From Caldimonas brevitalea (GTDB taxonomy: Bacteria > Pseudomonadota > Gammaproteobacteria > Burkholderiales > Burkholderiaceae_C), in the NCBI RefSeq assembly GCF_001017435.1, contig NZ_CP011371.1:4712001-4776000 (forward strand): 64,000 nt of DNA, given 5' to 3'. The notes under the pieces are model-generated. The model saw nothing but the letters and a program-made list of their open reading frames with translations, did no database searches and was not told the DNA's origin. Position 1 is the first letter of the stretch; each line of letters starts with the position of its first letter. The position numbers and the translations under genes were made by a program. Positions 999-7,741 of the stretch are shown here, piece by piece.

Positions 999-1040
999 AA
1001 CGGCCCGCTCCCGACGTCTGTCGGCCGGGCCGTTCTCTTT
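999..1040 (+). terminator. rho-independent terminator
   Basis: Arms AACGGCCCG (999-1007) and CGGGCCGTT (1026-1034) are perfectly complementary over nine pairs and are followed by TCTCTTT. This would end transcription coming from the DUF6362 region before the methyltransferase gene. Confidence 0.7.
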
Positions 1041-1076
1041 GCCTGCGTTTCCTCCTGACGCCGCGCGAGCGGCCTT

Positions 1077-1113
1077 CGGCCCGCCTCCGATTCGTCGGGG
1101 CGGGCCGCCTTTC
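1077..1113 (+). terminator. second hairpin before the methyltransferase
   Basis: Arms CGGCCCGCC (1077-1085) and GGCGGGCCG (1099-1107) pair over nine bases with a 13-base loop, followed by CCTTTC. It lies 19 bases before the methyltransferase ATG and may act as a second terminator or as a structure that limits translation of that gene. Confidence 0.5.
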
Positions 1114-1125
1114 ATCGCACGCCGA

Positions 1126-2415
1126 ATGCCGTCACCCAGCTTCTCCGATCCGCTCAAGCTCGAACACTGGCCCACGGCCAGGCTCATCGCTTACGCGAGG
1201 AACCCGAGGAAAAACGACCACGCAGTGGATCGGATGGCGGCGGTCATCGCCGAGTTTGGGTTTCGAATTCCGATTTGCGCCAAGAGCACCGGCGAAGTCG
1301 TCGACGGGCACTTGCGGCTCAAGGCCGCGATCAAGCTCGGCATGCCGCAGGTCCCAGTCGTGTTGGCCGATGAGCTGACGGACGCACAGATCCGCGCCTT
1401 TCGCCTGCTGGCCAACCGATCCGCGACCTGGGCGGAGTGGGACGATGAGCTGCTGCGGCTCGAGATGGCCGAGCTGAACGAGGCGGAGTTCGACCTGTCG
1501 CTGACCGGCTTCGACGCCGACGAACTTGCCAGCATCCTGGCCGGCGATGAGCCCGCGCACGAGGGCGAGACGGACGACGATGCGGTGCCGGAGGTCGCCG
1601 AGGAATCGGTCTCGCAGCCCGGCGACGTCTGGGTGCTGGGCGACCATCGCCTGCTCTGCGGCGATGCGACGAAGCCGCAGAGCTACGCCTCGCTGCTCGG
1701 CGAAGGCCGGGTCGACATGGTCTTCTGCGACCCGCCCTATGGGGTCAACTATGCGAACACCGCCAAGGACCGGCAGCGCGGCACGGCTCGCCCCATCCTG
1801 AACGACAACCTCGGCGAGGGCTTCTACGATTTCTTGCACGCCGCGCTCTCGGCGATGCTGACACGGTGCGACGGTGCGGTCTACATCGCGATGTCCTCCA
1901 GTGAGCTGGACACGCTGCAGGCGGCTTTCCGGGCGGCGGGCGGCCACTGGTCGACCTTCATCATCTGGGCCAAGGACGCCTTCACCCTGGGCCGCGCGGA
2001 CTACCAGCGCCAGTACGAGCCGATCCTTTACGGATGGCCCGAGGGGGTGAAACGCCACTGGTGCGGCGACCGCGACCAGGGCGACGTCTGGCAGATCAAG
2101 AAGCCGAGGAAGAACGACCTGCACCCGACCATGAAGCCGGTGGAGTTGGTCGAGCGGGCGATCCGCAACTCCAGCAGACCGGGGGACGTCGTGCTGGACC
2201 CGTTCGGCGGTTCTGGCACCACCTTGATCGCCGCCGAGAAGTCGGGCCGCGGGGCCCGGCTCATGGAACTGGACCCGAAGTACGCCGACGTGGCGGTGCG
2301 CCGCTGGCAAGACTGGACGGGCGAGCGTGCCGTCCGGGAACGCGACGGACAGCCCTTCAACGAAGCGGCCTCTGCGCCAGAGGAGGCGTCGAGCCGGAAC
2401 GCAGGGGCTCAGTGA
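1126..2415 (+). CDS. ParB-domain / DNA methyltransferase fusion
   Basis: The protein has 429 residues from the ATG at 1126; an upstream in-frame TTG at 1039 lies inside the terminator and is unlikely. Residues about 10-110 form a ParB/Srx-like nuclease fold (VVDGHLRLKAAIKLG, then ADELTDAQIRAFRLLANRS). Residues about 190-400 are an amino-DNA methyltransferase with motif IV DPPY near residue 202 and the later SAM-binding DPFGGSGTT near 358. That order is of the beta class, so N6-adenine or N4-cytosine is the expected target. No restriction enzyme gene is adjacent, so it is probably an orphan phage methylase protecting the phage DNA or marking it for packaging. It ends four bases before a convergent gene. 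Confidence 0.9.
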   Translation: MPSPSFSDPLKLEHWPTARLIAYARNPRKNDHAVDRMAAVIAEFGFRIPICAKSTGEVVDGHLRLKAAIKLGMPQVPVVLADELTDAQIRAFRLLANRSATWAEWDDELLRLEMAELNEAEFDLSLTGFDADELASILAGDEPAHEGETDDDAVPEVAEESVSQPGDVWVLGDHRLLCGDATKPQSYASLLGEGRVDMVFCDPPYGVNYANTAKDRQRGTARPILNDNLGEGFYDFLHAALSAMLTRCDGAVYIAMSSSELDTLQAAFRAAGGHWSTFIIWAKDAFTLGRADYQRQYEPILYGWPEGVKRHWCGDRDQGDVWQIKKPRKNDLHPTMKPVELVERAIRNSSRPGDVVLDPFGGSGTTLIAAEKSGRGARLMELDPKYADVAVRRWQDWTGERAVRERDGQPFNEAASAPEEASSRNAGAQ

Positions 2416-2418
2416 GAG

Positions 2419-2781
2419 CTACACGAGCGCTTCGTGCATCGCGGCGGCGATCACAAAGCCGGTCAGGTACGGCAGGCCGCGCGGGATGCCGTGGTACTTC
2501 GACGTCTTGGTGCCGATCCGCCACGTCATCCACCGGTCGATGGCTTTCTGGATCGCCTGGGGAAGGGGCTCGCCAGCGTGCAGCTGGTTGAGAACGTTGT
2601 CGGCGAAGTGCCGGCCCGAGCCGCTGTCCAGGAACGCCCGGACCGACTCCATCGGCTCTCCCGTCGCCTTCGCGATGCCTCGCATGGCGATCGGCCAGGC
2701 GGCCGGTGCGTGTTCACGCATCGTGCCGATGAAGCCCCAGGCCTCGTTTTGTGTGCTCGGGACGTTGTCGATGAAGTTCAT
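2419..2781 (-). CDS. small phage-cassette protein, family A copy 1
   Basis: The protein has 120 residues and begins at an ATG preceded by AGGAGG eleven bases upstream. No known domain is recognised. It is clearly paralogous to the gene at 3018-3380: both carry APAAWPIAM near residue 25, a following amphipathic stretch ending in VRAFLDS or VQAFLNS, a DRWM motif, and a C-terminal LTGF/LTGY. Both are exactly 120 residues long. It is the last gene of the minus-strand array and is convergent with the methyltransferase gene, with only three bases between stops. It is driven by its own copy of the shared promoter module (2823-2851). Confidence 0.75.
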   Translation of the reverse strand: MNFIDNVPSTQNEAWGFIGTMREHAPAAWPIAMRGIAKATGEPMESVRAFLDSGSGRHFADNVLNQLHAGEPLPQAIQKAIDRWMTWRIGTKTSKYHGIPRGLPYLTGFVIAAAMHEALV

Positions 2782-2822
2782 GTTGCGTTCCTCCTGCGGT
2801 TGGTTTGCCTTGCGGTGCCTCT

Positions 2823-2895
2823 ATTCACGCTCCTTGTGACGCAGATGCCAAGCGATGTAAGGCACCGTTTTTGATACCAGTGGATAGCGGGGCCG
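2823..2895 (-). promoter_or_regulatory. shared promoter module, copy 8
   Basis: On the minus strand TTGGCA (2846-2851) is followed after 17 bases by GTGAAT (2823-2828), the -35/-10 layout shared by all eight minus-strand cassette genes. Upstream, CGGCCCCGCTATCCA and GTATC are shared with copy 7 only. It is the most diverged copy. Confidence 0.55.
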
Positions 2896-2988
2896 CATCC
2901 GGAGACGGCGCTCCCGGCCGTCAGGCGTGTGGGAGCGATCCTCCGCAATGACGTCGACCACCGGGAGGCCGGTGTCGTCTTGTTGGGA

Positions 2989-3005
2989 CGGCGCTGGTCG
3001 CGCCG
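2989..3005 (-). terminator. weak hairpin after family A copy 2
   Basis: CGGCGC and GCGCCG form a six-pair stem with a five-base loop just beyond the stop of the 3018-3380 gene. There is no clear U-run, so this is only a candidate. Confidence 0.3.
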
Positions 3006-3017
3006 CCTGGTGGCTCG

Positions 3018-3380
3018 TTAGGCCGCCCGCTCTTCGGCCCCGGTCACCATCACGTAGCCGGTGAGCGAGGGCGTGTCAGCCGCAACTTCCCAGTCCCGGA
3101 AGGCATCGATTTGCACACACCGGCTCATCCACCGATCAGCCACCGTCTGGAGGGCGTCGGTCAGGGACAGGCCGGCAAACAACCAGTCAAGCGTGTCCTC
3201 GGCGAAGGACCAGCCGTATTCGCTGTTCAGGAAGGCCTGGACCGCCTCCTCCGGTTGGGCGGTCGTCTTGGCGACGACGGTCATCGCGATCGGCCAGGCG
3301 GCCGGGGCCGGTTCGCCCATCGCGCCGTAGAAGCCGGCGGTTCCGTTCTTCTGCCTGTCGATCTTCGCTTGTTGGTTCAT
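3018..3380 (-). CDS. small phage-cassette protein, family A copy 2
   Basis: The protein has 120 residues when started at MNQQAKIDRQ, where AAAGGA lies nine bases upstream; longer in-frame extensions lack such a leader and run through the promoter. It shares APAAWPIAM, the VQAFLNSEYGWSFAEDTL segment, DRWM and LTGYV with the protein at 2419-2781, at the same spacing. Both look like compact alpha-helical, cytosolic proteins. No function is known to me. The pair most likely arose by duplication of a whole cassette, promoter included. Confidence 0.75.
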   Translation of the reverse strand: MNQQAKIDRQKNGTAGFYGAMGEPAPAAWPIAMTVVAKTTAQPEEAVQAFLNSEYGWSFAEDTLDWLFAGLSLTDALQTVADRWMSRCVQIDAFRDWEVAADTPSLTGYVMVTGAEERAA

Positions 3381-3426
3381 TCTTCGATCCTTTCTTTGTG
3401 AAGCGCCGCTTGTGTGCGACGCCTTC

Positions 3427-3499
3427 ATTGACGCTCTACGTGCCAAGGTAGACAAGCGGTGTGGGCGCTTGTTTTGGATACAAATGGATAGCGGGGCCG
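3427..3499 (-). promoter_or_regulatory. shared promoter module, copy 7
   Basis: On the minus strand TTGTCT (3450-3455) is followed after 17 bases by GTCAAT (3427-3432), with the common AGAGC just before the -10. The upstream half matches copy 8 (CGGCCCCGCTATCCA, GTATC, AAAAC, CGCTTG). Confidence 0.6.
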
Positions 3500-3508
3500 A
3501 GGCCCCGC
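3491..3508 (-). terminator. hairpin after family B copy 1
   Basis: GCGGGGCC (3491-3498) and GGCCCCGC (3501-3508) are perfectly complementary. The hairpin lies seven bases beyond the stop of the 3515-3892 gene on the minus strand and abuts the upstream end of the next promoter module. Confidence 0.55.
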
Positions 3509-3514
3509 AACGCG

Positions 3515-3892
3515 TCAACCGAGCCGTGCGACGTAGCGTGCGTAGTCCGCGCCCTCGGGATTCACGTACAGGATCGGGCGGCCCGGCGCGATCAGCTCGA
3601 CGCACACCCAGGCGTCCCAGATCTGCCCGCCCTCGCGGGTCAGCCATTCGCGCCGGCGCAAGAGATCGCTGGCGAAATCGTCGTACTCGTCGGTCGTCAG
3701 CTCGCGGGTCCTGGTCACGAAAATCCGCTGCGGCTCGCCGCCGCCCACGTCTTCAAGCGCCTGCGGCTTGCGCGTGAAGGGAAGCCGAATGCCCAGCTCG
3801 TGAACCAAGACCTGGTCCGAGCCAATCGTGACGGTGCGGGGGATGCGAGCGATGCGAATCGTCAGCTCGCTGGGGGAAACCTTGGTGTCCAT
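3515..3892 (-). CDS. small phage-cassette protein, family B copy 1
   Basis: The protein has 125 residues from the ATG at 3892 (MDTKVSPSEL), which has AGGAAGAACAG upstream; an ATG 24 bases earlier has no ribosome site. The C-terminal half, with a REGGQ segment, a CVELIAPGRP strand pair and VNPEGADYARYVARLG, matches the protein at 4790-5170 (GEGGH, CVELVTP, INPEGGDTPLYVASID). The N-terminal halves also share a strand followed by FTRKP. No known domain is recognised. The repeated beta-rich pattern suggests a small soluble fold. It has its own promoter module. Confidence 0.72.
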   Translation of the reverse strand: MDTKVSPSELTIRIARIPRTVTIGSDQVLVHELGIRLPFTRKPQALEDVGGGEPQRIFVTRTRELTTDEYDDFASDLLRRREWLTREGGQIWDAWVCVELIAPGRPILYVNPEGADYARYVARLG

Positions 3893-3936
3893 CTTTCTGT
3901 TCTTCCTTGGTGTCATCGCGTTGTTGCGATGGCTCT

Positions 3937-4001
3937 ATGAACGCTCTGTTCGGGGACGAAGCCAACGGGTTGCCGGCCTCGAAGGTGATAGCGTTTGATA
4001 G
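3937..4001 (-). promoter_or_regulatory. shared promoter module, copy 6
   Basis: On the minus strand TTGGCT (3960-3965), 17 bases, then GTTCAT (3937-3942). GAACAGAGCGTTCATAG around the -10 is identical to copies 1 and 2; the distal box is diverged (CTATCAAACGCTATCACC). Confidence 0.65.
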
Positions 4002-4112
4002 GTCGGACCGTTGCGGTGCAGTCGGACGCCGCGGGCTGGGCCAGTACCCCAAGCCGCCTCGTTGAGGCCGTGTGCGGGCGCAGCGGGCCGCTGTGACAGG
4101 CACCGCTGCGTC

Positions 4113-4134
4113 AACCGCCCCGTGCGGGGCGGTT
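4113..4134 (-). terminator. terminator hairpin after family C copy 1
   Basis: AACCGCCCC (4113-4121) and GGGGCGGTT (4126-4134) form a nine-pair stem with a four-base loop, five bases beyond the stop of the 4139-4618 gene. The A/T pairs at the base give short T tracts on both strands. Confidence 0.6.
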
Positions 4135-4138
4135 TGGC

Positions 4139-4618
4139 TTAGAGCCTTGCTTGCTTCATGTTCTCGCCGCGCACCTGCACGGGCGGGCGGTCGTCGTAGT
4201 CCTGCGGGTCGGCTTCGAAAGCGGCCAATGCCATCCGCAGCACCTTGCGCAAGGCCCCGGCCCGATCTGCCAGCGGGCTGAGCCAAAGGAGACAGCCGGC
4301 GACCTTGTCGACGTCGAACCAGCGGTCGCTCCGGATCGTTTCGCAGAGCTCGCACCAGACCGAGATCCAGTACACCGCGAGGTAGCCGTCCACCGCGGGG
4401 ATGACCGCCGGCACGCGGCGGTCGATGCGGGTCCAATCCGAATCGCCCGGTTGGGAGGCGAAATCCGCGACGACCCGCACGTGCAGCCCGAGCAGAGGGT
4501 CTTGCGTGTAAACCGCGCCGAGGGGGCGCATGCCGTGCTGCCGGGCGATGCGGTTTACCTCGCTCAGGAAGGCATCGCAGCGGGACAGGTCCGTGTGGCT
4601 GGTGTTGAAGGTGTTCAT
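4139..4618 (-). CDS. phage-cassette protein, family C copy 1 (long form)
   Basis: The protein has 159 residues. Its C-terminal 70 residues (WCELCETIRSDRWFDVDKV, then RAGALRKVLRMALAAFEADP and a DDRPPVQVRGENM tail) match almost the whole 91-residue protein at 6767-7042, whereas its first 85 residues have no counterpart there. So the two are paralogues that differ by an N-terminal part gained or lost. AAGGAAC lies upstream of the ATG at 4618. No known domain is recognised; the predicted content is mixed alpha and beta with no signal peptide. Confidence 0.72.
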   Translation of the reverse strand: MNTFNTSHTDLSRCDAFLSEVNRIARQHGMRPLGAVYTQDPLLGLHVRVVADFASQPGDSDWTRIDRRVPAVIPAVDGYLAVYWISVWCELCETIRSDRWFDVDKVAGCLLWLSPLADRAGALRKVLRMALAAFEADPQDYDDRPPVQVRGENMKQARL

Positions 4619-4662
4619 TCTTCGTTCCTTGTGTTGGTTGCGTCGCCAAGCGCGACAACGAC

Positions 4663-4717
4663 ATGAACGCTCTTCACGGGCCTAGTCATCAACGGTTCAG
4701 ATGATGCTGGTTGATTC
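4663..4717 (-). promoter_or_regulatory. shared promoter module, copy 5
   Basis: On the minus strand GAATCAACCAGCATCA, then TTGATG (4687-4692), 18 bases, and GTTCAT (4663-4668). It is closest to copy 4, with which it also shares the leader GCGACGCAACCAAC. Confidence 0.7.
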
Positions 4718-4758
4718 ACAGGTGAGAGAACCGCGACGGTGAGGCCCCACACGGTTCA

Positions 4759-4780
4759 GCGGGGCCGTGGTCGGCCCCGC
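4759..4780 (-). terminator. terminator hairpin after family B copy 2
   Basis: GCGGGGCCG (4759-4767) and CGGCCCCGC (4772-4780) pair perfectly with a four-base loop, ten bases beyond the stop of the 4790-5170 gene. No strong T tract follows. Confidence 0.55.
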
Positions 4781-4789
4781 CCGCCTAGA

Positions 4790-5170
4790 TCAGTCGATCG
4801 AGGCCACGTAGAGGGGCGTGTCGCCCCCTTCCGGGTTGATCAGCAGCCTGCCGTAGGTTGGGGTGACCAGCTCGACGCAAAGGAAGGCGTCGGCGGTGTG
4901 GCCGGTGCCGAGGTGGCCGCCCTCGCCGCGCAGGAAGTTGAAGCGCTTGTCGCGGTCGCCGACCAGCTCCTCCCAGACCGTGTCGGCCACGTGAACCGTC
5001 TTGGTGATGTAGGCGGTGGCGAGCAGGCCCGGCTTGTCGAAGTCCTCATCGCACGCCGGCTTGCGGGTGAACTCCAGGGCCGGGGTGATCTGCTCGACGT
5101 GCAGCGAGCGGCCGTTGTAGAACAGGATGGCGGGGCGGCGGGTGTAGCGGGTCTTGTTGGTTGTGGTCAT
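4790..5170 (-). CDS. small phage-cassette protein, family B copy 2
   Basis: The protein has 126 residues and is the paralogue of the 3515-3892 product. It shares FTRKP in the first half and GEGGH, a DAFLCVELVTP strand and INPEGGDTPLYVASID in the second. Identity is modest, so the duplication is not recent. No signal peptide or membrane segment is seen and no function is known. The short leader (AAGCCAAGCAAC) contains only a weak ribosome site. The gene has its own promoter module and a perfect nine-pair hairpin behind it, so it looks like a self-contained transcription unit. Confidence 0.72.
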   Translation of the reverse strand: MTTTNKTRYTRRPAILFYNGRSLHVEQITPALEFTRKPACDEDFDKPGLLATAYITKTVHVADTVWEELVGDRDKRFNFLRGEGGHLGTGHTADAFLCVELVTPTYGRLLINPEGGDTPLYVASID

Positions 5171-5212
5171 GTTGCTTGGCTTGTTGGTTGCGTCGCCAAT
5201 CGCGACACCGCT

Positions 5213-5267
5213 ATGAACGCTCTACGGCGCCCCACCTAGCAACGGTTCAGGTGATGCTGGTTGATAC
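5213..5267 (-). promoter_or_regulatory. shared promoter module, copy 4
   Basis: On the minus strand GTATCAACCAGCATCA, then TTGCTA (5237-5242), 18 bases, and GTTCAT (5213-5218) inside GTAGAGCGTTCATAGCG. Confidence 0.7.
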
Positions 5268-5507
5268 GTGGCTGAAGCGCACCGGCGGCCTTTGCGCTGG
5301 GCAACCGCAAGGCGGGGTGGACCGCACCCTGCTGCGCTCGGGCGACCTCCGGGCTTTGGTGCCCGTACGGGGCCGCTCGCTTGCGGCGCCGAGGGTCAGA
5401 AGCGGTAGGCGTTGGTCTCAGCCCGTTCTGCTTCTGTGCCGGCGCGGCCTGTGCCAACGCGGCAACGGGAGCCGCCCCGGGAGGGCGGCCCCCGGGGCGC
5501 GGCTGCG
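5268..5507. other. gap without a clear gene
   Basis: Between promoter copy 4 and the DUF6900 gene the sequence is very GC-rich and holds short frames only, none with a leader or recognisable content. The hairpin after the DUF6900 gene lies at its right end. It may be the remnant of a lost cassette, since the other spaces in the array are shorter. Confidence 0.35.
5471..5489 (-). terminator. hairpin after the DUF6900 gene
   Basis: GCCGCCC (5471-5477) and GGGCGGC (5483-5489) form a seven-pair stem with a five-base loop about 20 bases beyond the stop. No U-run follows. Confidence 0.35.
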
Positions 5508-5705
5508 TTACGGCTGGGCCGGTTCCTGCTGCTGGGCCTCGAGACCGCGTTCGTAGCCGGCCTTGAAGGCTGCGTCGAGCGCGCGGCGGACCTCCCAGAC
5601 CGCGACCTCAGGGAAGTCCAGCTGGTCGCTGTTCCGCGTTTCGAGGGTTTCGATCCTCAGGTGCTTGCGGGCGATGCTGGCAAAGAGGGCGTTGAGGTTT
5701 TCCAT
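5508..5705 (-). CDS. DUF6900 domain protein
   Basis: The protein has 65 residues. The central part, ARKHLRIETLETRNSDQLDF followed by EVAVWEVRRALDAAFKAGYERG, matches the short DUF6900 family of phage and plasmid proteins, whose job is unknown. It is acidic in the middle and helical at the C-terminus. AAAGGAA stands nine bases before the ATG. It belongs to the minus-strand cassette array and has its own promoter module (5742-5795). Assignment is from the recognisable family signature. Confidence 0.75.
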   Translation of the reverse strand: MENLNALFASIARKHLRIETLETRNSDQLDFPEVAVWEVRRALDAAFKAGYERGLEAQQQEPAQP

Positions 5706-5741
5706 CGTTTTTTCCTTTCGGGTTGGGGTTGCGATGGCTCT

Positions 5742-5795
5742 ATGAACGCTCTTGTCGGGCGAGCCAGCAACGACTGAATTGATGCTGGTTGATTC
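5742..5795 (-). promoter_or_regulatory. shared promoter module, copy 3
   Basis: On the minus strand GAATCAACCAGCATCA, TTGCTG (5765-5770), 17 bases, GTTCAT (5742-5747). The segment AAGAGCGTTCATAG is shared with the other copies. Confidence 0.7.
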
Positions 5796-5916
5796 ACGGC
5801 GCGGCGGGGCGGGCCCGGTGCGGCGCAGCCCGCAAGGTGATCTCAGCCTCCCCCGGCCGCGATTGCGCTGCCTTGTGGCCGTGCTCTGCGGGCAGGGTCG
5901 CCGGCGGCCCCGGACA

Positions 5917-6621
5917 TCAAGCAGCCTCGCCCTCGATCGCCTCGGCCTGTTGCGAGGGTTGCTGATCGCTCTCCGCCTCGGCCTCGGCCTCGGCCTCGGC
6001 CTCGACGATGCGGTAAACGCGCTCGTCGTCGGTGCTTTTCTCCGAGACCACGTTCAAGCCGAGCCGCTTCTTGAAGGTGCCGGCGAAGGCGCCGCGCACC
6101 GTGTGCGCCTGCCAGCCGGTGAGGTGGCGGATCTCGTCGATGGTGGCGCCTTCCGGGCGGCGCAGCAGGGCGATCACCTGGGCCTGCTTGCTGTTGCTGC
6201 GCGGCTCGCGCGTCACCTGGGCGGCCGGCTCAGCCGCCGGGTCTGCGCTCTCAGCCTCAGCGTCCGGTTCCGCCGAGGCCTTGGCCCAGGACGCTTCGGC
6301 GGCGGCGACCTCCTGCTCCAGGTCGTCTTGTGCCTCTGCGGCCGTCACCGCCGAGGCGGCAACTTTGCGCTTGCCCTTGGCTTTGGCCTTGGGCGCCCGC
6401 GTCGTGGGCCGCTTCCGTCCGAGCGCCGCGTAGCCGGCGTCGGTCACGACGTGGTGCCCACCCTCCTCGGCGATCAGCTCGCGCGTCAGCAGGCCTTGCA
6501 GCACCTTCGCGATGGCACCGCCTTTGACGCTGGCCGGGAACCACTCGATGCGGCCGTCGGTGTGCTGGACGGCGAACTCGAGGGTCTCGCGCTGGGTGGC
6601 GGTCAGGGTGATGGCGTTCAT
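5917..6621 (-). CDS. DUF3489 domain protein
   Basis: The protein has 234 residues from the ATG at 6621, with AAAGGAACC upstream. Residues 1-70 (TLTATQRETLEFA, then GRIEWFP and VTDAGYAALG) look like a small winged-helix unit. A basic linker (RKRPTTRAPKAKAKGKRK) and an acidic, alanine-rich linker follow. Residues about 150-205 (SKQAQVIALLRRPEGATIDE, then TGWQAHTVRGAFAGTFKKRLG) are the DUF3489 helix-turn-helix domain, which suggests DNA binding. The protein ends in a Glu-Ala repeat that is a simple GGCCTC run in DNA. Such proteins are common in phages and mobile elements of alpha- and betaproteobacteria. It could regulate the shared promoters of this array, but that is inference. Confidence 0.82.
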   Translation of the reverse strand: MNAITLTATQRETLEFAVQHTDGRIEWFPASVKGGAIAKVLQGLLTRELIAEEGGHHVVTDAGYAALGRKRPTTRAPKAKAKGKRKVAASAVTAAEAQDDLEQEVAAAEASWAKASAEPDAEAESADPAAEPAAQVTREPRSNSKQAQVIALLRRPEGATIDEIRHLTGWQAHTVRGAFAGTFKKRLGLNVVSEKSTDDERVYRIVEAEAEAEAEAESDQQPSQQAEAIEGEAA

Positions 6622-6667
6622 GTTTGGGTTCCTTTGCGTTGGTTGGTTGTCGTTGTGCGACGTCGCT

Positions 6668-6721
6668 ATGAACGCTCTGTTCGGGCTGTGCAGCAACGAA
6701 TGAATTGATGCGGGTTGATTC
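6668..6721 (-). promoter_or_regulatory. shared promoter module, copy 2
   Basis: On the minus strand GAATCAACCCGCATCA, TTGCTG (6691-6696), 17 bases, GTTCAT (6668-6673). From the middle of the spacer into the leader it is identical to copy 1 over about 30 bases. Confidence 0.72.
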
Positions 6722-6727
6722 CTGGCT

Positions 6728-6749
6728 GGGCGCCACTTGAAAGGCGCCC
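6728..6749 (-). terminator. hairpin after family C copy 2
   Basis: GGGCGCC (6728-6734) and GGCGCCC (6743-6749) form a seven-pair stem with an eight-base loop 17 bases beyond the stop of the 6767-7042 gene. There is no U-run. Confidence 0.4.
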
Positions 6750-6766
6750 CGTGGGGCACCACCGAC

Positions 6767-7042
6767 TCAAACCTTGGCGTACTCCATGTCGTCACCCCTC
6801 GTCTCGACCGGCGCCTCATGCTCGTAGGCTTCGGGTCGCCGCGCGTAGTCGGCCAGCACGGCCCGCAGAACCGAACGCAGAACGCGGCCTCGATTCGGGA
6901 AACCGCGCAAACAAGGGAGTCGGTTTGCCGTCTCCGTCACGTCGAACCATTCGTCTGCACGGACCTCATCGCACAACTCCGTCCAAATCTGGTCGCAGAT
7001 TCGCTCGGTGGACTCGGCGGCGCTGAAAGTCGTCTTGCTCAT
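6767..7042 (-). CDS. small phage-cassette protein, family C copy 2 (short form)
   Basis: The protein has 91 residues and corresponds to the C-terminal half of the 4139-4618 product (WTELCDEVRADEWFDVTETA, then GRVLRSVLRAVLADYARRPE and the ETRGDDMEYAKV tail). Its first 17 residues are unrelated. GAAAGGAACC precedes the ATG, in a leader that is almost identical to that of the DUF3489 gene. No known function. It is the first gene of the minus-strand array and points away from the terminase genes. Confidence 0.72.
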   Translation of the reverse strand: MSKTTFSAAESTERICDQIWTELCDEVRADEWFDVTETANRLPCLRGFPNRGRVLRSVLRAVLADYARRPEAYEHEAPVETRGDDMEYAKV

Positions 7043-7089
7043 GTTTGGGTTCCTTTCGGTGGGTGGTTGGTGTGTCTTGCGACGTCGCT

Positions 7090-7143
7090 ATGAACGCTCT
7101 GTTCGGGCCGCGCCGCAACGGCTGAATTGATGCGAGTTGATTC
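7090..7143 (-). promoter_or_regulatory. shared promoter module, copy 1
   Basis: On the minus strand GAATCAACTCGCATCA, TTGCGG (7113-7118), 17 bases, GTTCAT (7090-7095). The transcript leader would be about 45 bases and carries the common AAAGGAACCCAAAC ribosome site. Confidence 0.72.
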
Positions 7144-7219: not shown

Positions 7220-7741
7220 ATGGGAATGTCGATACGGGCCTATGCCCGCCACCGCGGTGTCAGCGACACCGCCGTGCGCAAGGCCATCCAGGCGGGCCGC
7301 ATCACGCCGGAGCCGGACGGGACCATCGATGCGGAACGGGCCGACGCGGACTGGGCGCAGAACACCGAAGAGCCGCGCGTCGGCACGCGGCAAAAAGCGC
7401 CGCGCGTGCAGAGCGACCTGGTGGATCGCGGCGCGTCCCCGGCCGGCGGCACCTCGCTGCTGCAGGCACGGACCGTCAACGAGGTGGTCAAGGCCCAAGC
7501 CAACAAGGTCCGGCTGGCCCGCCTGAAGGGCGAGCTGGTTGACCGCTCGCAAGCCCTGGCCCACGTGTTCAGGATGGCGCGCGCCGAGCGCGACGCGTGG
7601 CTCAACTGGCCGGGACGGGTGTCGTCGGAGCTGGCCGCACGGCTCGGCGTGGACCCGCACGAGATGCACGTGGCGCTGGAGAGGGCCGTGCGCGAGCAGT
7701 TGCAGGAACTGGGCGAGGTGGCGCCAAGGGTCGACGGATGA
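7220..7741 (+). CDS. terminase small subunit (Nu1-like)
   Basis: The protein has 173 residues (171 if the second ATG at 7226 is used). The N-terminus (MSIRAYARHRGVSDTAVRKA, then IQAGRI) is a winged helix-turn-helix as in lambda Nu1, which binds the packaging site. The middle holds a helical linker (NEVVKAQANKVRLARLKGEL) and the C-terminus the region expected to contact the large subunit. Its TGA overlaps the ATG of the large subunit (ATGA). The stretch before it, 7144-7219, is where a cos or pac site would be expected by analogy with lambda, but no motif was identified. Confidence 0.85.
   Translation: MGMSIRAYARHRGVSDTAVRKAIQAGRITPEPDGTIDAERADADWAQNTEEPRVGTRQKAPRVQSDLVDRGASPAGGTSLLQARTVNEVVKAQANKVRLARLKGELVDRSQALAHVFRMARAERDAWLNWPGRVSSELAARLGVDPHEMHVALERAVREQLQELGEVAPRVDG

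Follow-up and report, generated by a model that had tools for sequence, protein, structure and literature searches.

Eight small genes of a prophage of Caldimonas brevitalea are oriented against the lytic direction of the phage, each behind a copy of the same promoter-like module, and the question raised by this locus is what such a repeated element controls and in which phase of the phage life cycle. The DNA analysed here, hereafter the window, is a stretch of 64,000 nt (NZ_CP011371.1, positions 4,712,001 to 4,776,000) of a 6.48-Mb single-contig genome, in which a reverse block of eight minus-strand open reading frames (A to H, with gene starts at 7042, 6621, 5705, 5170, 4618, 3892, 3380 and 2781) sits between a methyltransferase gene and the gene of the terminase small subunit. 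Judging from the sequences of fetched relatives, including phage AcaML1, the same module also precedes an operon formed by a DUF2924 gene and a large serine recombinase gene, the integrase. Our preferred reading, held with about even confidence, is that the modules constitute one promoter class of mobile elements within a temperate-phage regulon which includes the DUF2924-recombinase operon, and which would be on during the establishment or maintenance of lysogeny. The shared element thus probably marks one jointly controlled gene set.

Architecture of the module in the window

The sequence TTGnnn, followed after 17 nt (18 in D and E) by GTnnAT, precedes all eight minus-strand genes, as the initial annotation had described. 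The 12-base core GAGCGTTCATAG is exact in five of the eight modules, with the variants GAGCGTTCATGT in E, GAGCGTCAATGA in G and GAGCGTGAATAG in H, and TCGC (CCGC in H) is found 5 nt past it in every copy. Identity among the eight modules amounts to 100% at TTG, 85% in the core and 86% at TCGCA, to 36% in the spacer and to 28% in the flank (random, 28%); beyond TTG, the -35 hexamer is 29% identical, TTG and its spacing being kept in 8/8. Counted in A from the direct-repeat box described below to TCGCA, the modules lie, all on the minus strand, at 7078..7141 (A), 6656..6719 (B), 5730..5793 (C), 5201..5265 (D), 4651..4715 (E, the weakest of the eight), 3925..3999 (F), 3415..3489 (G) and 2811..2885 (H), the box being placed further up in the last three, by about one helical turn in F. 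Across an extended, non-redundant set of 35 modules, no variation is seen in the T of TTG, in GCGT or in the final T of GTnnAT, and the spacing between -35 and -10 is kept. This constant spacing and the conservation of the core in relatives agree with the earlier view that the modules have diverged under selection for their layout.

From the spacing, the short distance to the start codon and a conservation that stops close to a plausible +1, we infer promoter activity and a start site around TCGCA. The start codon follows TCGCA at a median of 22 nt (5-95% range 14-35, from the table of 203 sites described below). The -10 would be unusual, as T occupies position 2 of this box (-11), where sigma-70 prefers A, in 35/35 modules; no TATAAT-like box (A at position 2, T at position 6) was found near the core in any of the eight modules, nor any consensus sigma-70 promoter within the reverse block. 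The nearness of start codons could also denote a translation-initiation element comparable to the start-associated sequences (SAS) of cluster K mycobacteriophages, which lie 3-9 bp from the start codon and contain the ribosome-binding site (PMC3203893, PMC11373665), and for which a role in translation has been proposed (PMC3203893). We consider this highly improbable for the present module, whose conservation stops 14-35 nt 5' of the start codon and extends to the invariant T of the -35-like TTG, about 21 columns above the core. Furthermore, prediction from the 35 modules gave 0 conserved RNA pairs, and an RNA element or structured leader was rejected, with neither consensus structure nor covarying pairs in this set.

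The eight sites differ in how far they stand out from chance. The core alone, at ≤2 mismatches, gave nine matches in the window against a shuffle mean of 3.26, and 1/100 shuffles reached nine, which is weak evidence. With a weight matrix of -35 and core, the eight best positions of the 64-kb window are the eight modules (scores 44.9 to 12.1; next 10.7). The matrix was trained on 41 sites of other records, with exclusion of Eleftheria, Aquabacterium, the window and the copy of the window in IMG/VR. Also excluded, here and from the 203-site table, was L030, a locus that matches the exact pattern and was treated as chance, as tblastn found no block protein in it. The best scores in 40 dinucleotide shuffles averaged 9.1 with a maximum of 22.1, so that only position sets D (21.7) and E (12.1) apart from chance matches. 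This comparison is partly circular because most training sites came from a window-derived pattern; modules were found independently of that pattern in AcaML1 and Eleftheria, through similarity of the block, and in the DUF3489 searches. A covariance model of 35 modules, seven of the eight in the window among them, recovered the eight sites at E ≤ 8.5e-4 in the 6.48-Mb genome of the host, the next site having an E of 0.246; a host regulon was consequently rejected, as the eight modules are the only significant sites in that genome.

Above the -35, the box ATCAACCnGCATCA occurs in 5/8 modules (four exact, A with one mismatch), and in F, G and H a related repeat, ATC-N7-ATC, lies higher up by 10-11 nt. 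The 10-bp direct repeat ATC-N7-ATC is thereby present in 8/8, starting at -42/-43 from the core in A-E and at -53 in F-H, a count that stands without a chance rate. The same box emerged from a motif search of width 12 in 36 upstream regions, with a log-likelihood of 93.1 vs ≤43.2 in shuffles (8 per width). Its strong copies lie 9-10 or 19-20 nt upstream of the -35 and come from the window, Eleftheria and Aquabacterium. The core and box which the initial annotation had called common to most modules are thus each found in five of eight, the box being strong in these three sources only; the ATCAACC box is lineage-specific, and TTG with GCGTnnAT is the universal part. As side observations made by eye, spacer dyads of the ACTTC-N5-GAAGT type occur in some copies and lack conservation in others, and GANTC sites lie near the box in part of the modules only.

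Modules are most alike where they are neighbours (A-B 0.87, B-C 0.80, D-E 0.77) and less so where their genes are paralogues (A-E and D-F, <0.5), which indicates that copying or conversion of modules was in part independent of the genes behind them. Together with the varied small genes behind the modules, this is what would be expected of a recombination or cassette-exchange site for gene swapping between phages, with promoter likeness as a secondary trait; we hold such an origin to be improbable, given the promoter spacing, the fixed short distance to the start codon, the placement of the module only upstream of genes and the dissimilar flanks. Regarding transcript ends, a terminator scan gave three terminator-like sites, every one on the plus strand (shuffles average 4.4), and detected none on the minus strand, so that transcripts may run on past single genes. 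Accordingly, of the proposal that the cassettes are one-gene units switched together, a common regulon is plausible and the one-gene units are not borne out.

The integrase operon and the distribution of the module

Many prophages carry a distal module on the strand of the block, at a distance of 13-18 kb. In the first five of these sites fetched, the DUF2924 start lies 36 nt downstream of the first core base, and the DUF2924 gene abuts or overlaps the large serine recombinase gene (5/5 in both cases). Likewise, the distal module of AcaML1 (3012-3045) stands before Gp4 (PF11149, E 1.9e-49) and the annotated recombinase Gp3, and that of the Eleftheria terrae plasmid record (329905-329938) before DUF2924 and recombinase genes. 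Distal sites of viral contigs precede this pair in 7/8 cases, three of the seven being near-identical, and the eighth precedes a small HTH_17-like protein. In the Limnohabitans-type prophages the module is found before a HTH-NusG-like gene and a serine recombinase gene (L143 by Pfam; L144 by likeness, its first gene being interrupted). The prophage of the window itself has a ninth, weak site (L006:9355, minus strand; genome C1:4701345-4701376, E 0.337), located outside the window and before a DUF2924 gene (L006:8833-9312, E 1.7e-46) and a large serine recombinase gene (L006:7421-8836).

A table of 203 non-identical sites was compiled at a score threshold of 14 (8 for L006), at which weak sites such as those of L140, L141, L166 and L182 are lost. 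The first gene was of the phrog_8020 family in 44 sites, DUF6900 in 24, DUF3489 in 24, DUF2924 in 23, phrog_21303/D in 13, a 67-aa family in five and others in seven, with 63 unmatched; these shares are not frequencies, as the loci were selected for fetching, distal sites were included on purpose and near-identical copies were retained. A recombinase follows DUF2924 in 23/23 DUF2924 sites. The modules had been described as marking a set of accessory cassettes, and this remains accurate for the small genes, to which the integrase operon has now to be added. As separate observations, a conserved 96-aa gene of no known family (MSNRFK start) lies behind the module in L140, L141, L142, L145 and L166, in L140-L142 at about 25 kb from the block and on the opposite strand. 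The module-DUF2924-recombinase start is nearly the same in AcaML1 of Acidithiobacillus (L223:3024) and in a Burkholderiales-family genome (G363, L167:224), a hint, from sequence likeness, of transfer across classes.

The exact core pattern was found in 33 IMG/VR stretches, two of them the window's own phage, and in six of the genome collection; with TCGCA left free, 86 stretches matched, the gap being 11 in every listed match (gaps of 8 to 11 nt were allowed, larger ones not). Among 110 loci searched by tblastn, many of them short and including the window and its own records (L006, L007, L034, L036), DUF3489 was found in 92, the methylase in 91, DUF6900 in 84, phrog_21303 in 37, DUF6362 in 29, and phrog_8020 and the terminase in 25-26. 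In the host family, the module was matched in 71/399 genomes at E ≤ 0.01 (about four expected by chance; 52 at 1e-3), usually before small phage genes, and in 49/141 genera at E ≤ 0.01. In wider samples it was matched at 1e-3 in 31/300 genomes of the order and 9/398 of the phylum, five of these nine outside the order; of two such outside loci, L239 has it before DUF2924 and recombinase genes and L238 before no known gene. The resemblance is therefore not confined to one recent duplication, the outcome that would have counted against the initial annotation, and a single recent duplication was rejected as its source. Further, 45/56 DUF3489 places in the 399 genomes have a listed module within 1.5 kb (G247:C6:1022 counted), and tblastn of DUF3489 in 50,697 phage records returned three AcaML1 records only.

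The block of relatives carries one to six modules, one per gene being the upper end of the range: L025 reaches it with four modules and four block genes, modules form clusters of six in G499 and G590, and L041 (NZ_NESN01000001.1, Limnohabitans parvus II-B4) carries the module as well. In the Eleftheria record, the matrix places modules before 3/4 annotated reverse genes, and the AcaML1 block (Gp27-Gp32) has three. We also noted in AcaML1 (L001:10921-11115, minus strand) an unannotated DUF6900-family frame (phrog_2555, E 2.5e-20), preceded by one of these three modules and overlapping the annotated Gp33 on the other strand. A distant phrog_8020 homologue belongs to a forward gene cluster in Bordetella phage CN1, and another, in Thauera plasmid pTha01 (L003:8546-8914, minus strand), lies beside DNA methyltransferases and has no module by the core pattern.

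The module is also found in restriction islands. In L218, L221 and L222 it accompanies a phrog_10315/DUF3489-type gene beside type I restriction genes (HsdM in L218; HsdS, HsdM and HsdR in L221 and L222). L218 has a second module before an apparent broken DUF2924 frame and a recombinase; in L222 no DUF2924 and recombinase were seen. Cross-talk of island modules with co-resident phages is possible.

Concerning the block genes of the window, all on the minus strand, A (6767..7042; 91 aa) and E (4139..4618; 159 aa) have no family and are paralogues; B (5917..6621; 234 aa) is the DUF3489 gene (PF11994, E 5.9e-30); C (5508..5705; 65 aa) belongs to DUF6900 (PF21841); D (4790..5170; 126 aa), by itself without family, is a paralogue of F (3515..3892; 125 aa, phrog_21303), for which an alternative in-frame ATG at 3916 is possible; and G (3018..3380) and H (2419..2781), of 120 aa each, are phrog_8020 paralogues. 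Identity within the three pairs is 31-40%. The block is bordered on the plus strand by the DNA methyltransferase gene, with a ParB-like N-terminus (1039..2415, longest frame), to the left, and by the terminase small subunit gene (phrog_57, 7220..7741) to the right. A defence role of the eight block proteins was rejected, with 0/8 PADLOC matches at E 0.01.

Candidate regulators and competing readings

In the proposed promoter class, a -35 TTG would be separated by 17-18 nt from a -10 GTnnAT placed inside GCGTnnAT, with the start region at about TCGCA and the start codon usually 14-35 nt on. The T for A at the -10 of every module makes an activator or other specificity factor likely. In the window's lineage, we infer an activator, probably phage-encoded, which would act on the 10-bp direct repeat ATC-N7-ATC, either directly upstream of the -35 or farther up by about one helical turn, a shift that an activator on one DNA face would allow, and which would assist RNA polymerase at a -10 presumably ill suited to sigma-70. 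Lambda CII offers an analogy by which the combination of integrase and reverse block points to lysogeny: during its establishment or upkeep the regulon would be active, supplying the integrase and the reverse-strand accessory proteins against the lytic direction, with a logic like that of the CII promoters pI and paQ.

Two proteins were considered as the factor. The DUF3489 model (predicted local distance difference test 75.7, predicted template modelling score 0.37) has predicted winged-helix domains at 8-66 and 145-206 joined by a low-confidence linker, and its best Foldseek matches are winged-helix proteins of the ArsR, TFE and MarR types, none at E ≤ 1e-3. The DUF6362 protein (PF19889; 233..622, plus strand) is predicted to have helices like those of sigma region 4, with matches short of significance (best E 0.31, at a probability of 0.97), making it a possible phage transcription factor. 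Sequence searches against PDB gave weak matches only. At E ≤ 1e-3, module and DUF3489 occur together in 34/399 genomes (module alone 18, gene alone 5), and module and DUF6362 in 30/399 (22 and 1, respectively); phage descent confounds both of these strong associations. DUF3489 adjoins the module in the restriction islands, where DUF6362 was not found, and we lean weakly towards DUF3489. As an aside, in Rhodobacter phage RcOceanus the annotation ends with a gene homologous to DUF6362.

If DUF6362 or a functional equivalent read the promoters as a phage sigma-like factor, the block would hold accessory genes of the middle or late lytic phase instead of lysogeny genes. The position of DUF6362 before the methylase and terminase genes, its modelled likeness to sigma region 4, its co-occurrence with the module and a -10 unlike that of sigma-70 speak for this scheme, which we nevertheless regard as unlikely: tblastn found no DUF6362 in the module-bearing AcaML1-type loci L001, L013, L024, L026, L029 and L040 (some of them short) or near the restriction islands, and the integrase operon fits late lytic expression poorly. 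A rather unlikely explanation is that of ordinary, moron-like promoters of the prophage state, used by host RNA polymerase without a phage factor, the serine integrase being tolerated in the lysogen as it cannot excise alone. The TTG-17/18 spacing and the presence of the module in so many genera of the host family and in restriction islands agree with it, against which stand the invariant T at -11, the lack of any consensus promoter in the block and a host genome without further significant site.

The lysogeny reading has its own difficulties. The lambda CII repeat TTGC-N6-TTGC around the -35 was found in 0/8 modules, and no repressor gene was recognised behind the module, 63/203 first genes having matched no reference. 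The ninth site of the prophage is not significant alone, and L221 has DUF2924 and recombinase genes without a module above score 14. The 96-aa gene at the right end and the Limnohabitans-type integrase operon are oriented opposite to the block, and L219 and L220 carry single modules before small genes just after the tail genes of other prophages and in the same direction as these. Finally, the upstream box is absent or dissimilar in most other lineages.

In its broadest form our proposal is more tentative: a mobile-element factor, DUF3489 or DUF6362, would take part in reading promoters of the class TTG-N17/18-GCGTnnAT-TCGC, which in AcaML1 and in temperate phages of betaproteobacteria would tie integration to a conserved accessory block on the reverse strand. 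Integrative islands that hold type I restriction genes would employ this class too, and might be switched by a co-resident phage. If so, one easily recognised element marks a set of unknown phage genes as co-regulated with the integrase, providing a handle on the DUF3489, DUF6900, DUF2924, phrog_8020 and phrog_21303 proteins and insight into the lysogeny commitment of phages with large serine integrases, and start sites and regulons become predictable across Burkholderiales prophages. Should restriction islands use the same switch, cross-talk between phages and other integrative elements is suggested. A limited literature search met no publication on this element, an earlier description in print being possible.

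Comparison with known systems

Late promoters of the P2 type have TGT-N12-ACA upstream, which was found in 0/8 modules. Lambdoid morons are small extra genes in the structural half with promoters of their own; unlike them, the genes described here stand up to eight in a row, all in reverse, under one promoter type that also serves the integrase, and no terminators were detected. As in the present case, temperate phages of mycobacterial cluster K repeat an element ahead of many small genes for non-structural proteins, and extended start-associated sequences (ESAS) add 17-bp imperfect inverted repeats with putative -35/-10 promoters to the SAS (PMC3203893, PMC11373665). The 13-bp SAS GGGATAGGAGCCC was found at the ribosome-binding site of 0/8 modules at ≤3 mismatches.

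The reverse blocks of AcaML1 and Eleftheria occupy the same place between methylase and terminase, with the same families and the same module. They differ from the window in that the AcaML1 genes are packed operon-like with three modules, and the Eleftheria block has four genes with three clear modules and a fourth, degenerate one (by eye).

The promoters activated by lambda CII are pRE, pI and paQ, one located at the integrase gene and the others antisense to lytic genes. The present system differs from them in its many small genes, no repressor having been recognised among the first genes that matched a reference, and in its large serine recombinase with DUF2924. Like them it has putative promoters of one type at several places, directed against lytic transcription and in one case at the integrase, and direct repeats at one-turn spacing near the -35.

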